A stretch of DNA of 64,000 bases from Agathobacter rectalis ATCC 33656 (GTDB lineage: Bacteria > Bacillota > Clostridia > Lachnospirales > Lachnospiraceae), in assembly GCF_000020605.1 (NCBI RefSeq), contig NC_012781.1:2109501-2173500 (forward strand), in the 5' to 3' direction. Position numbers and translations under genes: made by a program. The notes beneath the pieces were generated by a model. The model worked only from the letters and a program-made list of their open reading frames with translations. It ran no database searches and was not told where the DNA came from. Shown here in pieces: positions 44,267 to 49,807 of this stretch (its first letter is position 1; every line of letters begins with the position of its first letter).

Positions 44267-46003
44267 CTACGCCCTAATGTCAAAGGAATATCTATGCACC
44301 TGACCGGTAGGTGGCAAATCCTTTTTCAGAAATCCAGCGACAAAATTCATCTGTTTCGAACCACTATTTACATTCAATTCACAATTATAGCCCTTATCCT
44401 GTAATCTCTTTTCCAACACCGGCAGAAATTGCTTTACCAGTGCATATGACTCATCACTATCCAAATAGAAATTAGTTGTAACCTTCCTATGAAGCATTTT
44501 AATTGACACATCTGTCCCACCGAGATGCTCTAAATCCAAATGTAAAAATGCTGATAATTCTTTGTCCGGATTGGACATACTTTTCTTATTTGTATACACA
44601 TACAACTGTCCGCTGGCGTTTTTTTCATTCATCTTCAATGGAACCTGCACATATGTATATGCCTCGTTTATCTGATTCATAAATTCAATATTTCCACGGA
44701 TATTATCTGCCAGTGCCTCTGCTTTAGGATTCACCACTCCTGATGTTTTCAAAATAATTTCCATATTTGTTATCTGTTTTTCAATTTTGTCGTACAAGCC
44801 ATCAAGCTTCTTAGGATTCTTCTCTAAATCTCCCGGTTTAATCATCCATTGCTGTTCTAAAGCCTCCTTCAACATAAGCTTAAAGGCTTCTCCTGAAAAC
44901 AAATGTCTCAGTGTATCGGCATTTGCCGGTGTATTTTCCAACATACTTTTTATATCGTTAAGTATTCCTACGACACTGCTATCCTCTGAATACAAAGAAA
45001 TATTGTTTTCCTGTAAATCCGGAAGCAGCATCCTGACCTGTTCATTAAGCTCTTCTATCTGCTTATCCGATAAAAGAAATCCAATAGTATTTGATTTTGT
45101 TTCATTCTCCTGTAAAAGGATGGTATCTGTTGCCGGAGCATTGTTTATTTTCTGCGTTGTGTGAATATCCTGTGATTCACCGGAAACACTGTTTAATGAT
45201 TCAAATAATTCAGCAATATTAAAGTGTTTTTTTACTACAGGTGCCGATTTATTATCACGCATTATTGCCTCATACTGTGACATATCAGAAGCTTCACTTG
45301 ATATAAATGCCTCTTCCGGCAGCCCTTCTGTAACAATATTTAAAATATCCCTCGCCTGGGTTACAAGCTTATACATTGATAAATCTTCGGCTGAAAGAGC
45401 ATTCGGCAGTTCATCTATCAAACTATCCATAGCAATTGTAATAGCCTGTTTGTCATTAGCATAATTTTCAAACTGAGCCGCATTTACCTGATTAATTTCA
45501 ATTCCAAGCCTCTTTAACTCAACAAGTGTAGTCACATTAATATCCTTATTATCCTGCACAAGCTGATACATCTGATTAAGGCTTGTCTTATCAATTGGCA
45601 TATGCTCTTCCATCATCTTGTTCACCATCGACAAATTTATGCCATCTACCGACAGACCTGCAGCCTTTAGCGCATCCATAAGTGTGAGGTTGGCTCCCTC
45701 GCCATCAACTGTATATGGTTTTATTTCTATAGTGCCTCCATCATTATTTTTCACCTGAAAAAACACAGACTGTCCCTGTTCAAATGAAAACTTTCCTGCC
45801 AGCCTTGCCAAAATCTGCTGACCATTTGACAAGGCAAGCTTAACCTGATTGCCACGGACACTGCTTACTGTTCCCTCAAATATCATCCCTTTTGACATTT
45901 CATTTAAAGAAGATACCAGCTTTTCAACGCCCTTTGCTCCTGTCATAGGCTCACCATTTGCCACTGAATTGTTGTATTGACTTACCAAATTTGATATCTG
46001 CAT
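44267..46003 (-). CDS. FliK-like hook-length-control family protein
   Basis: The 578-residue protein has a KOW/OB-like N-terminal part (GMIFEGTVSSVRGNQVKLALSNG) and a long, poorly conserved Gln/Ser/Glu-rich middle. The C-terminal domain (about 465-575) contains LHLDLEHLGGTDVSIKMLHRKVTTNFYL and YALVKQFLPVLEKRL, which resembles the FliK C-terminal specificity-switch domain. FliK binds FlhB in flagellar export. Here the FlhB-like gene follows 69 bases downstream, but no other flagellar gene is in sight. AGGGTG precedes the ATG at 46001-46003; the frame extends upstream without a ribosome site. Confidence 0.78.
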   Translation of the reverse strand: MQISNLVSQYNNSVANGEPMTGAKGVEKLVSSLNEMSKGMIFEGTVSSVRGNQVKLALSNGQQILARLAGKFSFEQGQSVFFQVKNNDGGTIEIKPYTVDGEGANLTLMDALKAAGLSVDGINLSMVNKMMEEHMPIDKTSLNQMYQLVQDNKDINVTTLVELKRLGIEINQVNAAQFENYANDKQAITIAMDSLIDELPNALSAEDLSMYKLVTQARDILNIVTEGLPEEAFISSEASDMSQYEAIMRDNKSAPVVKKHFNIAELFESLNSVSGESQDIHTTQKINNAPATDTILLQENETKSNTIGFLLSDKQIEELNEQVRMLLPDLQENNISLYSEDSSVVGILNDIKSMLENTPANADTLRHLFSGEAFKLMLKEALEQQWMIKPGDLEKNPKKLDGLYDKIEKQITNMEIILKTSGVVNPKAEALADNIRGNIEFMNQINEAYTYVQVPLKMNEKNASGQLYVYTNKKSMSNPDKELSAFLHLDLEHLGGTDVSIKMLHRKVTTNFYLDSDESYALVKQFLPVLEKRLQDKGYNCELNVNSGSKQMNFVAGFLKKDLPPTGQVHRYSFDIRA

Positions 46004-46134
46004 AGCATCACCCTGATATAGTATCGTTATGTTTAAGTATACATGTATAAATTGTATCATTTATTGGTATTTCTGTCACTATATTACTGTTCACACACCA
46101 CAGTGTAACCGCAACAATTGATTTCTTTCAAAAA

Positions 46135-46917
46135 TCAGGTAAATTCCACCATATTCTTCCTATACCACTTTGGACAAAGATTGCGCTGACATTGTGGATT
46201 GAACCGCTCCCTTATATCAGTGTGCTCAAAATACACCTTCCATAACTGCTCAAAACTGTCTGTCTTCACCGGCACACTTATCTCAAGCTGCTTAAATTCA
46301 CTTTCATTGATATAAAAGCACTCCTTAAGCCTCGGGTGGACCACTGCATACCTTCTTCTATCATCATAGATTACAAAATTTTCCCCGGGATACCTGTCCA
46401 CAAAATGCCACATAACAACCGGTATCATATCGCATTTTGGTTCAAAGTGCGCCAGCAGATAGTTTCCATTATCACTAAAATGAATAAACCCTCTTATCTT
46501 GTCAGCCTCTTTATTTACCTTTCTTGAAAGCTCAAATACCTCCATAACATATTTATCGGTCATATGCTCCATAATCCTTTGTCCCACCTTAAATGCTCTG
46601 ACAAGAAATCCAAGCACTATTGTTGCTCTATTACCAGAATAATGGCACAAAGCATCAAATACAGTCTCATATATCTTAAAACCTAGCTTCTTTTGAATTG
46701 TCAAAATTGTCTTTTGGACCTTTACCTCATCTGTTTCAATATCTATCATCTTTGAAAAAAGTGTATAGTTTCCTCCAATGCCTATCTCAATAGAAATATT
46801 GTCCCGGTATACTTCGTGATTTTCTTTTTGCATTTGATTTTTGTATACAAAAGCATCATATATAGCGGTAAAAATCCCATTTATATTATTATCACATCTA
46901 AGTATTATATTATCCAT
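46135..46917 (-). CDS. DUF4130 / TIGR03915-type DNA-metabolism protein, partner of the radical SAM protein
   Basis: The 260-residue protein begins MDNIILRCDNNINGIFTAIYDAFVYKN and belongs to the DUF4130 family (TIGR03915 type). In some genomes this family is fused to a uracil-DNA-glycosylase-like domain, which suggests a DNA repair or modification role. No such extra domain is visible here, and the C-terminus ends NPQCQRNLCPKWYRKN with two Cys. The family is known to occur only next to the radical SAM protein encoded immediately upstream. GGGAGAAGG precedes the ATG at 46915-46917. Both are probably transcribed from the promoter with LexA-type boxes. Confidence 0.85.
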   Translation of the reverse strand: MDNIILRCDNNINGIFTAIYDAFVYKNQMQKENHEVYRDNISIEIGIGGNYTLFSKMIDIETDEVKVQKTILTIQKKLGFKIYETVFDALCHYSGNRATIVLGFLVRAFKVGQRIMEHMTDKYVMEVFELSRKVNKEADKIRGFIHFSDNGNYLLAHFEPKCDMIPVVMWHFVDRYPGENFVIYDDRRRYAVVHPRLKECFYINESEFKQLEISVPVKTDSFEQLWKVYFEHTDIRERFNPQCQRNLCPKWYRKNMVEFT

Positions 46918-46951
46918 GCATCCTTCTCCCTGCAGCTTTACAAAATATTGT

Positions 46952-48427
46952 CTATTCAGATATAAAATCAAATATACTCATCTGCTCATAAGTACATGAT
47001 TTATTATCAGCTAAAAGCATAGTATCCGGCCTTTCGTTATATATGAGATGCCTTGTAATATAGCTTTCATCAAGCTTTGTATTGTACATCATACGACCAT
47101 CACAGGTGATAAAGTACAGTGCTCTTTTGAGCACGACACCCATTTTCTTTAAATCTGTAAACGAAAGCTTTGCATGCTTTCTGGCTTTTATAATACGCCT
47201 GACACTGTTAGTGCCTATTCCCGGGACCCTGAGAAGTGTATAATAATCCGCCGTCATAATCTCAACCGGAAAACACTCCAGATGACCTACAGCCCACTGA
47301 CACTTTGGATCAATATAATCATTAAAGTTCTGATTATCCTCCGACAAAAGCTCTCCTGCCTTAAAGCCATAAAATCTCATAAGAAAATCTGCCTGATAAA
47401 GCCTGTGCTCTCTCTTTAACGGTGGCGGCTGCCCGATACCCGGTAATGACTCATCCATATTAACATTCACAAAAGCCGAGTAAAATACTCTCTTCATATC
47501 AAACCTGTTGTACATTGCTTCTGCTACAGATATAATCTGATAATCACTCTCTCCGGTTGCTCCCACAATCATCTGTGTACTCTGCCCCGCCGGCACATAA
47601 TATCTGTCCGGTCTTTTGATACTTAAGCCTGATTCCCAGCTTTTTTGTGCAAGCTTATCAGCCTTCCCGCAATCTGTAGCAACCCTAAGGCTTCTGTGAT
47701 ACTCTGATAATCTTGCAGTACTATCTTTTATTTCGGCCATCTGCTCATAATATGCCTGCTCATCTATATACATACGGTTTTTCATACTGCTATTGCCATG
47801 ATACATTCGGCTGTCCTTTATACCATTTTGAATAAATCTCATAGGTGTAAGAATGTTTTTACGCGCCTTATTCGGAGCAACTGCCCTAAGCCCTTCCGCT
47901 GTGGGCAACTCCAGATTAACACTCATCCTATCACAAAGATATCCAATCATCTCAAGGACCTCAGAGGAGGCTCCCGGTATACCCTTGATGTGTATATACC
48001 CATTGAAATGATATTTGTTTCTCAAAAGAAAAAGCGTGGTATATAAAAGCTGCATGGTATGCTCGGGCGATTCTATGATACCAGAGCTTAAGAAAAGTCC
48101 CTCTATATAATTGCGTCTGTAAAACTCAACAGTAAGCTTACATACCTCCTCAGGCGTAAATGTCACTCTTTCAACATCATTAGTGCATCTGTTGATACAG
48201 TATTTACAATCATAAATACATTCATTTGTAAAAAGTATCTTGAGAAGCGATATACACCTGCCATCAGCTGTAAACGAATGACATATTCCACTGGCAAATG
48301 CACTCCCCATATCAGTTCCATTACCCGAACGGGATGCACCACTGGAAGTGCATGCAACATCAAACTTTGCCGCATCAGACAGAATCTTAAGTTTTTCCAT
48401 AATATCAGCACTGATTGACGTTAACAT
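46952..48427 (-). CDS. Radical SAM protein, putative DNA repair/modification enzyme (TIGR03916 type)
   Basis: The 491-residue protein has the radical SAM cluster motif CIYDCKYC (Cx3Cx2C) near residue 79, followed by the barrel elements GLFLSSGIIESPEHTM and NLELPTAEG. A C-terminal helix-hairpin-helix DNA-binding motif reads VPGIGTNSVRRIIKARK. The family (rSAM linked to UDG-type partners) is always found beside TIGR03914/TIGR03915 proteins, and a repair or base-modification role has been proposed from that. The start ATG has a perfect GAGGAGG site. The promoter contains two LexA-type boxes, so expression is probably DNA-damage induced. Confidence 0.88.
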   Translation of the reverse strand: MLTSISADIMEKLKILSDAAKFDVACTSSGASRSGNGTDMGSAFASGICHSFTADGRCISLLKILFTNECIYDCKYCINRCTNDVERVTFTPEEVCKLTVEFYRRNYIEGLFLSSGIIESPEHTMQLLYTTLFLLRNKYHFNGYIHIKGIPGASSEVLEMIGYLCDRMSVNLELPTAEGLRAVAPNKARKNILTPMRFIQNGIKDSRMYHGNSSMKNRMYIDEQAYYEQMAEIKDSTARLSEYHRSLRVATDCGKADKLAQKSWESGLSIKRPDRYYVPAGQSTQMIVGATGESDYQIISVAEAMYNRFDMKRVFYSAFVNVNMDESLPGIGQPPPLKREHRLYQADFLMRFYGFKAGELLSEDNQNFNDYIDPKCQWAVGHLECFPVEIMTADYYTLLRVPGIGTNSVRRIIKARKHAKLSFTDLKKMGVVLKRALYFITCDGRMMYNTKLDESYITRHLIYNERPDTMLLADNKSCTYEQMSIFDFISE

Positions 48428-48447
48428 AAGACCTCCTCACATCATTT

Positions 48448-48482
48448 CGAACATCTGTTTGCATTATACAACATATGTTCGG
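48448..48482 (-). promoter_or_regulatory. Two LexA-type SOS boxes in the radical SAM promoter
   Basis: CGAACATCTGTTTG (48448-48461) and, on the minus strand, CCGAACATATGTTG (48469-48482) match the Gram-positive LexA consensus CGAAC-N4-GTTC with at most one key mismatch each. Their centres are 21 bases apart, two helical turns. Confidence 0.82.
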
Positions 48483-48491
48483 GTAAATCAA
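48463..48491 (-). promoter_or_regulatory. Promoter of the radical SAM operon
   Basis: TTGATT (plus 48486-48491), a 17-base spacer and TATAAT (plus 48463-48468). One LexA-type box fills the spacer and the other begins right after the -10, so LexA binding would block RNA polymerase. Confidence 0.82.
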
Positions 48492-48532
48492 GTGAAAATT
48501 TTTGGAAAAATATTGTTATGGTTCATAAGCAC

Positions 48533-48578
48533 AAAAACCATAGATATCTTAAATGCATTAAGATACTATGGTTTTTAT
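48533..48578 (-). terminator. Terminator after the esterase-like gene
   Basis: AAAACCATAG-ATCTTAA and TTAAGAT-CTATGGTTTT form a stem with a small bulge and A/T runs on both sides. It separates the esterase-like gene from the SOS-type promoter and could act in both directions. Confidence 0.85.
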
Positions 48579-48686
48579 TTATAATAATTATCGTAACTAT
48601 TCAGTTGCAAAAAATATCGTAGCCTTTATAAACAGACTTTATTCCGACTAAAAAAATTTTCTTAAGAGCTACTGTATGACATGATT

Positions 48687-49535
48687 TTATCCCAATTTAG
48701 TCTTAAAAAACTCGATTATCCTATCCCACAGTTCATCCTGGAAAAACTGCATATCTGCATGGTCAGCGCCTTCCAATGCAATCAAATCTGCATCACAGCC
48801 ATTTTCAATAAGCTTGTCATAAAGCTCTTCACTCTGCTCAAACGGAACTGTCTGATCATTTATACCGTGAATAATCAAAAATGGAGGAGCATCTTTTGTC
48901 ACCTTAGACACCGGAGAACTGTTATATGCTTCCTTGATATTTCTCATAATATTATATCCGAGTAAAAGTGACTCCATAGATGCTGCGCATTCTTCGGCAT
49001 CTTTATACTTAAATGTGCTAAGGTTAGTAGGTGGATACCATGGACATGCTGCCTGAATACTGCTTGACTCTTCAAGATATTCTCCAACATCACGAGCTTT
49101 ATCATGATCCAATGCCGCCATACATGTCAAAAATCCTCCGGCTGATTCTCCCATCGCACCAAAATGTTCCTTGTCAATTCTGTATCTATCTGCATGTGCC
49201 TTCAAATACCTGATTGCAGCCTTCACATCCTCTATCTGCATAGGATAGCAACCCTCATTTGATGTGCGGTATTCCACACTGCAAACAACAAACCCCTGAT
49301 GAGCAAGCGTGCTAAGATATGATAGATGTGCTGACTTATCCATCCTCATCCATCCACCACCGCATATCCATACTATACAAGGATAACGCTTGTCAGACAT
49401 ATCTTCCGGATATATTAAATCGAGTTTTAAATCCCTGCGACAGTGATCATACCACGAATCCACCTGCGCATATGTAATATCAGACACCTGCACATATTGT
49501 GGCTTCGTCACATTAATCTTAAGCTTTTCCTTCAT
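48687..49535 (-). CDS. Alpha/beta hydrolase, acetyl-esterase-like
   Basis: The 282-residue enzyme has the hormone-sensitive-lipase/BD-FAE layout: an oxyanion region CGGGWMRMDKSAH, nucleophile Ser in GESAGG, an acid Asp in HGINDQTVP and a His in GADHAD. No signal peptide is present, so it acts inside the cell. The probable substrate class is small acyl or acetylated compounds such as deacetylated sugars or xylan fragments; the specific one cannot be read. AAGGAGG precedes the ATG. It stands alone between the tRNA-Trp unit and its own terminator. Confidence 0.88.
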   Translation of the reverse strand: MKEKLKINVTKPQYVQVSDITYAQVDSWYDHCRRDLKLDLIYPEDMSDKRYPCIVWICGGGWMRMDKSAHLSYLSTLAHQGFVVCSVEYRTSNEGCYPMQIEDVKAAIRYLKAHADRYRIDKEHFGAMGESAGGFLTCMAALDHDKARDVGEYLEESSSIQAACPWYPPTNLSTFKYKDAEECAASMESLLLGYNIMRNIKEAYNSSPVSKVTKDAPPFLIIHGINDQTVPFEQSEELYDKLIENGCDADLIALEGADHADMQFFQDELWDRIIEFFKTKLG

Positions 49536-49641
49536 TTAAAAATCCTCCTTACATTTGTAATCCATTTTGAAATACAAAATTAATATCATTTAAAATAAAT
49601 ACTTTATGCCCATTATAATACATCTATTTTCATTTTTAAAC

Positions 49642-49678
49642 AAAAAAAACCTTGAAACAACTATCTTGCTTCAAGGTC
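49642..49678 (-). terminator. Terminator of the tRNA-Trp unit
   Basis: ACCTTGAA and TTCAAGGT form an 8-bp stem followed on the minus strand by a run of eight T. It lies seven bases past the tRNA 3' end. Confidence 0.92.
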
Positions 49679-49684
49679 TAAGAA

Positions 49685-49755
49685 CAGGGGATGAGAGAAT
49701 CGAACTCCCGCTAAAAGTTTTGGAGACTTCTGTCATACCATTTGACCAATCCCCT
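49685..49755 (-). tRNA. tRNA-Trp (anticodon CCA)
   Basis: The 71-base gene folds as a cloverleaf: acceptor arms AGGGGAT and ATCCCCT, discriminator G, a GTTCGATTC T-loop, and an anticodon loop CTCCAAA with CCA. The CCA tail is not encoded. It lies about 115 bases past the 23S gene but has its own candidate promoter. Confidence 0.95.
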
Positions 49756-49765
49756 ATATTTAAAT

Positions 49766-49794
49766 ATTATATCAAATATAGAAAAAGGACGCAA
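49766..49794 (-). promoter_or_regulatory. Candidate promoter of tRNA-Trp
   Basis: TTGCGT (plus 49789-49794), 17 bases and TATAAT (plus 49766-49771). The predicted start lies only a few bases before the tRNA. The -35 overlaps the hairpin that probably ends the rRNA transcript. Confidence 0.6.
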
Positions 49795-49807
49795 TAGGAA
49801 TTACGTC
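49782..49807 (-). terminator. Probable terminator of the rRNA operon
   Basis: GACGCAAT and ATTACGTC (49788-49795, 49800-49807) pair with one mismatch and are followed on the minus strand by CCTTTTT. It lies about 60 bases past the 23S gene. Confidence 0.6.

Follow-up and report, generated by a model that had tools for sequence, protein, structure and literature searches.

In Clostridium acetobutylicum, CAC3343-CAC3344 have been predicted to form a LexA operon on the basis of footprinting and expression data (PMC3828012), and in Bacteroidetes a COG1573-COG4277 uracil-DNA glycosylase (UDG) operon is reported to be SOS-controlled, with Verrucomicrobia and Alphaproteobacteria cited too (PMC8565304); what we say of these and other papers refers to the portions of their text available to us. 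Because SOS control has already been proposed in these settings, this kind of operon and its regulation are already known or proposed in print. Here we examine such an operon in a 64,000-nucleotide stretch of the Agathobacter rectalis ATCC 33656 genome (contig NC_012781.1, positions 2,109,501 to 2,173,500; hereafter the window, meaning the whole stretch analysed), in which a radical S-adenosylmethionine (rSAM) protein gene is followed by a DUF4130 gene. We conclude that this two-gene operon is probably repressed by LexA and induced in the SOS response, its products jointly processing DNA damage. The present analysis adds broad conservation of the LexA-type boxes, Bacillota loci that lack the uracil glycosylase UdgX, and a candidate second metal site in the rSAM protein.

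Other reports touch on parts of this system. An unspecified radical SAM protein is named in Gram-positive SOS regulons (PMC7739468), another belongs to the SOS regulon of Streptomyces venezuelae (PMC9380542), and DUF4130 has been linked with a 'SplB-like' rSAM protein and UDG (PMC3765255). The Clostridioides difficile regulon table, in the text available, contains no such gene (PMC4234289), and the accessible part of PMC1839093 holds nothing on an rSAM-DUF4130 operon. A literature search covering few subscription papers returned no paper with both UdgX and radical SAM; within the accessible text of the same literature, DUF4130, TIGR03915, TIGR03916 or rSAM_link_UDG occur only in PMC3765255, and the available portions of the cited SOS and DUF4130 papers nowhere give a mechanism or substrate for the rSAM-DUF4130 operon.

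LexA-type boxes at the rSAM promoter

The original prediction placed two GAAC-N4-GTTC-like boxes, 21 bases apart, over a TTGATT-N17-TATAAT promoter just before the rSAM gene. Both boxes are there, as is the promoter (48491-48463, minus strand), and the coordinates (Table 1) bear out the claimed operator placement, with one box in the spacer and the other after the -10; the distance between the boxes, however, measures 20 bp. Their 12-base cores, GAACATCTGTTT at 48449-48460 and CAACATATGTTC at 48469-48480, each have one mismatch to GAAC-N4-GTTC, and the final base of box A is the first base of the -10 hexamer.

Table 1. Features of the rSAM-DUF4130 operon and its promoter, in window positions
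Feature	Position	Strand	Basis or remark
-35 hexamer TTGATT	48486..48491	-	promoter scan
LexA-type box A, CGAACATATGTTGT (14-mer, coding strand)	48468..48481	-	in the -35/-10 spacer
-10 hexamer TATAAT	48463..48468	-	promoter scan; 17-nucleotide spacer to the -35
LexA-type box B, CAAACAGATGTTCG (14-mer, coding strand)	48448..48461	-	directly after the -10
Ribosome-binding site GAGGAGG	48432..48438	-	4 nucleotides ahead of the rSAM ATG
rSAM protein gene	46952..48427	-	TIGR03916, 643.8 bits (cut-off 343.5); 491 amino acids
DUF4130 protein gene	46135..46971	-	TIGR03915, 201.1 bits (cut-off 112.25)

Neither a lone core nor a promoter match is remarkable by itself: cores with one mismatch occur 8 times in the window against 18.2 expected in shuffles, and promoter-like sites 22 times in 45900-49800 against 16.8 expected. 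Sites within two mismatches of CGAACATATGTTCG number only six in the whole genome (3,449,685 bases), namely boxes A and B and one site each at recA (L006), lexA (L005), a Y-family polymerase gene (L004) and a cytosine methyltransferase gene (L003). A matrix of 185 sites from relatives, with the nearest named relative left out, scores box B at 17.2 bits and box A at 14.4 bits, first and second in the window and ahead of a third site at 7.5; the same matrix gives 19.7 bits for recA, 19.5 for the polymerase, 19.1 for the methyltransferase and 17.8 for lexA. Both boxes stand among the genome's six closest sites by mismatch count and lead the window by matrix score, a ranking of the kind that the original prediction had proposed as a check. 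The genome also encodes the LexA protein on which that prediction depended (TIGR00498, 245.8 bits), and the same kind of box lies in the promoters of its own lexA and recA genes.

We scored conservation in 110 relatives, comprising the best 80 of 382 named relatives and the 30 best matches from a sample of 200 Lachnospiraceae-family genomes, 112 of which have the rSAM gene above cut-off. A site counted if it lay in the 200 bp ahead of the rSAM start with at most two mismatches, and control windows were taken upstream of other open frames of at least 150 amino acids in the same loci, whether these are real genes or not. A box precedes the rSAM gene in 107 of the 110 relatives; the control windows have one in 23 of 718 cases and shuffled sequences in 4.0 of 110. 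At least two boxes are found in 77 relatives versus 2 of the 718 controls. Scoring by matrix (at least 12 bits) likewise gives 107/110, versus 6 of 1,915 random windows, and widening the upstream stretch to 250 bp raises the box count to 108. Exceptions are L099, with a box just inside the assumed rSAM start; L048, with a weak match only, at -230; and L046, in which two boxes precede a rarA-like gene that is itself ahead of the rSAM gene. That gene (L046:3515-4930) codes for a RarA/MgsA-like AAA ATPase whose best models score below their cut-offs; the rSAM and DUF4130 genes come next, in the same direction. The box overlaps a promoter-like pair in 74 of the 107 box-bearing relatives, a raw count taken without a control set. 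A constant helical phase between the two boxes was an idea we dropped: where a locus has exactly two sites (75 loci), spacings scatter over 13-14, 20-21, 25-36, 46-62 and 173.

Conservation extends to a sample of the phylum, for which 30 loci were kept from 45 genomes above cut-off; with the window's own locus (L146) excluded, 23 of the remaining 29 reach a matrix score of 12. For other phyla, proteobacterial and Bacteroidales loci were hand-picked from 158 plasmid records before their promoters were read. An exact GTTC-N7-GTTC (either strand), which we take to be the alphaproteobacterial LexA box, starts 16-28 bp ahead of the rSAM start in all seven annotated alphaproteobacterial plasmid loci, fewer independent events than seven because three are Thioclava relatives, and the motif occurs nowhere else in the eight proteobacterial loci (~47 kb). 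The eighth, from Caballeronia, has CTGT-N8-ACAG at -23, presumably a LexA motif of the CTGT type. The genome's LexA gene, the box in the lexA promoter, the conserved boxes and the swapped LexA motif in Alphaproteobacteria together support the SOS control that the original prediction had proposed.

Other LexA-related features of the genome deserve mention. The L003 box, CGAACATATATTCG (L003:1501-1514; G000:C1:156679-156692), is strong, and the DNA cytosine-5 methyltransferase gene downstream of it is possibly SOS-controlled; a vsr gene sits further upstream. In L002 (1489-1776, minus strand, within G000:C1:3305941-3309132), a 96-amino acid frame after a Y-family polymerase gene consists of a lone LexA DNA-binding domain without the peptidase, which could be an uncleavable repressor.

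The rSAM-DUF4130 pair and its proteins

The 112 Lachnospiraceae-family genomes with the rSAM gene are the identical 112 of 200 that have DUF4130 above cut-off; weak or fragment matches below cut-off, in six genomes for rSAM and three for DUF4130, were excluded from these counts. At the level of loci, we compared 170 (L020-L189, own locus included), 30 of which were retrieved via DUF4130. Both genes are seen in 160 of these, on one strand in 160/160, and they overlap or lie within 100 bp of each other in 148. Five of the ten loci in which no partner is seen reach a contig end before its expected start; L186 and L187 do have an rSAM gene on the contig and strand of DUF4130, at a distance of 3.7-4.3 kb upstream. 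In two loci, extra genes with the look of an abortive-infection type toxin-antitoxin system, judged by eye, stand between the pair (L053:6483-7022 and L057:6529-7334).

In the window the two genes are adjacent on the same strand. The DUF4130 start at 46971 is a TTG called mechanically, and an alternative ATG at 46917, preceded by GGAGAAGG, is the likelier start; the open frames overlap with the former and are separated by 34 nucleotides with the latter.

The rSAM protein carries the invariant radical SAM cluster motif CX3CX2C (C70, C74, C77). We aligned 55 sequences from Bacillota, Bacteroidota and Pseudomonadota (the window protein, 29 phylum loci, 14 of the 80 named relatives and 11 of 12 plasmid loci), and C26, C49, H50 and C58 are also invariant in 55/55. 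These three Cys and one His, just ahead of CX3CX2C, suggest a second metal site. The structure model has an overall predicted local distance difference test (pLDDT) score of 75.6 and is poor around C26-C58 (block pLDDT 46-59); among the 50 Foldseek matches listed of 955, the top ones are HydE, ThiH, lipoyl synthase, HydG and MiaB. A C-terminal helix-hairpin-helix (HhH) motif, claimed for the rSAM protein in the original prediction, holds for the family, with PF12836 matching 45/45 alignment members (best 7.6e-8) and the rSAM profile matching a ComEA-related PDB entry (E 6.2e-4), but the window protein alone matches weakly, below cut-off (E 0.0038).

DUF4130 gives a confident structure model (pLDDT 86), and its profile has zero matches among PDB sequences. 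DHH proteins make up the majority of the 50 best Foldseek rows (best E 8.4e-5), but with template modelling scores of at most 0.34, and hhalign found no match to three DHH groups formed by crude size sorting, of which the RecJ-size group includes L223, probably another DHH protein. Kinship with DHH/RecJ-Cdc45 proteins is thus unsupported by profiles despite the weak fold matches, and we keep it as a lead only. Among 80 DUF4130 sequences, F165, P178, F190, R193, R256, P267 and E276 are some of the residues conserved at ~97% or above; position 164 is Arg in 99% of the sequences and His in the window protein.

Between an upstream hydrolase gene and the rSAM promoter, an A/T-rich inverted repeat (AAAACCATAG...CTATGGTTTT, 48533-48576) has by eye the look of a two-way terminator and was not called in the terminator scan. 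Upstream of the hydrolase gene lie a tRNA-Trp gene (49684-49756, minus strand) and, by eye, an rRNA operon, the two spanning 49684 to ~54900.

Competing explanations

In the explanation that we favour, LexA dimers bound to the two boxes, in the spacer and in the start region, would block RNA polymerase, and DNA damage would release the operon through RecA-stimulated self-cleavage of LexA. The two products are predicted to work as a single unit, in which the rSAM enzyme would hold DNA through its HhH motif and carry the predicted second metal site, with DUF4130 probably the lesion- or DNA-handling partner. The pair would most likely process a damaged base or a cross-link by radical chemistry.

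Several observations weigh against this account. The conservation counts among the 110 relatives are not independent, because the relatives are kin and some are near duplicates. Six of the 29 phylum loci (L138, L144, L145, L152, L156, L159) stay under a matrix score of 12 in the stretch that was scanned; beyond that stretch, a site of ~15 bits exists in L144 and L152, and L138 and L145 have their DUF4130 gene elsewhere in the genome and a box at neither place. In neither of the two Bacteroidales plasmid loci do the published Bacteroidetes motifs find a convincing match, and when up to three mismatches are allowed the CGAACATATGTTCG motif is not enriched genome-wide, with 76 sites per strand and 297 for the reversed pattern used as a control. 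The L068 genome has the rSAM gene and no detected DUF4130, an exception to the original description of DUF4130 as an obligate partner, which the shared 112 genomes otherwise uphold. Finally, the case for DNA as the substrate is drawn solely from the HhH motif and the regulation.

That the boxes are chance or non-functional matches would suit the frequency of lone cores and the lack of enrichment at three mismatches, but the conservation is far above the controls and Alphaproteobacteria have another LexA motif in the corresponding position, which makes this extremely improbable. A stronger competitor is that the operon assists uracil base-excision repair, DUF4130 and the rSAM protein aiding a uracil-DNA glycosylase in removing nucleotides wrongly incorporated during SOS synthesis. 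The SOS-controlled COG1573-COG4277 UDG operon (PMC8565304) speaks for it, as do the Alphaproteobacteria, in which 3/3 DUF4130 proteins scanned carry a fused UdgX domain, the gene following rSAM is annotated UdgX in 7/7 loci, and a His aligned to the KRRIH His of UdgX is conserved in 7/7 proteins. However, a UDG domain is absent from the window DUF4130 protein, from 2/2 Bacteroidales proteins and from the family listings of 43 Lachnospiraceae partners, and Bacillota partner frames, at 174-318 amino acids in 162/162, are too short for a UdgX fusion. A search that recovers six other alphaproteobacterial fusions found no UdgX-like frame in the 170 Bacillota loci, a negative that speaks for UdgX alone because the search misses other UDG families, including the genome's own UDG-superfamily genes. 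These two PF03167 genes lie elsewhere, outside the operon. Because a UdgX-like domain or gene is absent from the 170 loci, the published uracil-repair reading misfits the Bacillota version; we consider it unlikely and have set uracil repair aside as the core function, although other UDG families could still lie near the operons of relatives. The constant core in the loci examined is rSAM plus DUF4130 rather than a uracil glycosylase, and the search for the lesion is therefore redirected.

Two further proposals seem to us quite improbable, and to a similar degree. Direct reversal of the UV thymine dimer in the manner of spore photoproduct lyase (SplB) would follow the single well-known precedent for radical SAM DNA repair and the 'SplB-like' name given to the DUF4130-associated rSAM protein (PMC3765255). 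However, no lyase appears among 21 PDB profile matches, nor among the 50 Foldseek matches listed for the rSAM model. TIGR03916 is also the sole NCBIfam match at E 0.001, and the NCBIfam models presumably include a spore photoproduct lyase family; we reject SplB membership, since the lyase is matched neither by family nor by PDB profile nor among the folds listed. A system for base modification or phage defence, with the SOS response serving as its alarm, would accord with a family name that includes 'DNA modification/repair' and with relatives on 158 plasmid and 10 phage-collection records. Eight of those 10, however, carry the name 'Bacteriophage sp.', come from human faeces without annotation and could be bacterial DNA, and the two opened are marked UNVERIFIED; occurrence in 112/200 Lachnospiraceae genomes resembles a core gene more than a defence gene, and a known defence system was discarded as a candidate since no PADLOC model matched.

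Within the favoured account of a LexA-controlled repair pair, a more specific chemistry is possible, though we hold it only tentatively. The SOS-induced rSAM protein might carry a second, N-terminal Fe-S cluster, with ligands among C26, C49, H50 and C58, and use DNA bases as its direct substrate, perhaps inserting sulfur or cleaving a bond as relatives of lipoyl synthase or MiaB do; DUF4130 would then be a new DNA-handling fold, to which Alphaproteobacteria added UdgX to trap the product. This would be, if true, a form of DNA repair chemistry that has yet to be described. The second metal site predicted here offers a concrete biochemical test.

Comparison with described systems

A repair-like pair that occurs in other phyla as well as in 112 of the 200 Lachnospiraceae genomes sampled, with SOS-type control apparently exercised through at least two different LexA motifs, invites comparison with what has been described. 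The operon resembles CAC3343-CAC3344 in that the same operon type has been proposed under LexA; it differs in the organism, in that the second gene is termed unknown in the accessible text of PMC3828012, and in that the LexA placement there is a prediction. With the Bacteroidetes COG1573-COG4277 operon it shares SOS control and probably the operon type, whereas that operon, in the text available, is read as UDG-based base excision repair and the partner in the window lacks a UDG domain. We take COG4277 to be the HhH rSAM protein of this operon type. UdgX comes close in that Alphaproteobacteria encode it next to the rSAM gene as one protein with DUF4130; it is not part of the window operon. SplB is likewise a radical SAM enzyme tied to DNA damage, but the window rSAM protein, which has no sequence or listed fold match to it, is set apart by the extra invariant Cys and His residues and the HhH motif.
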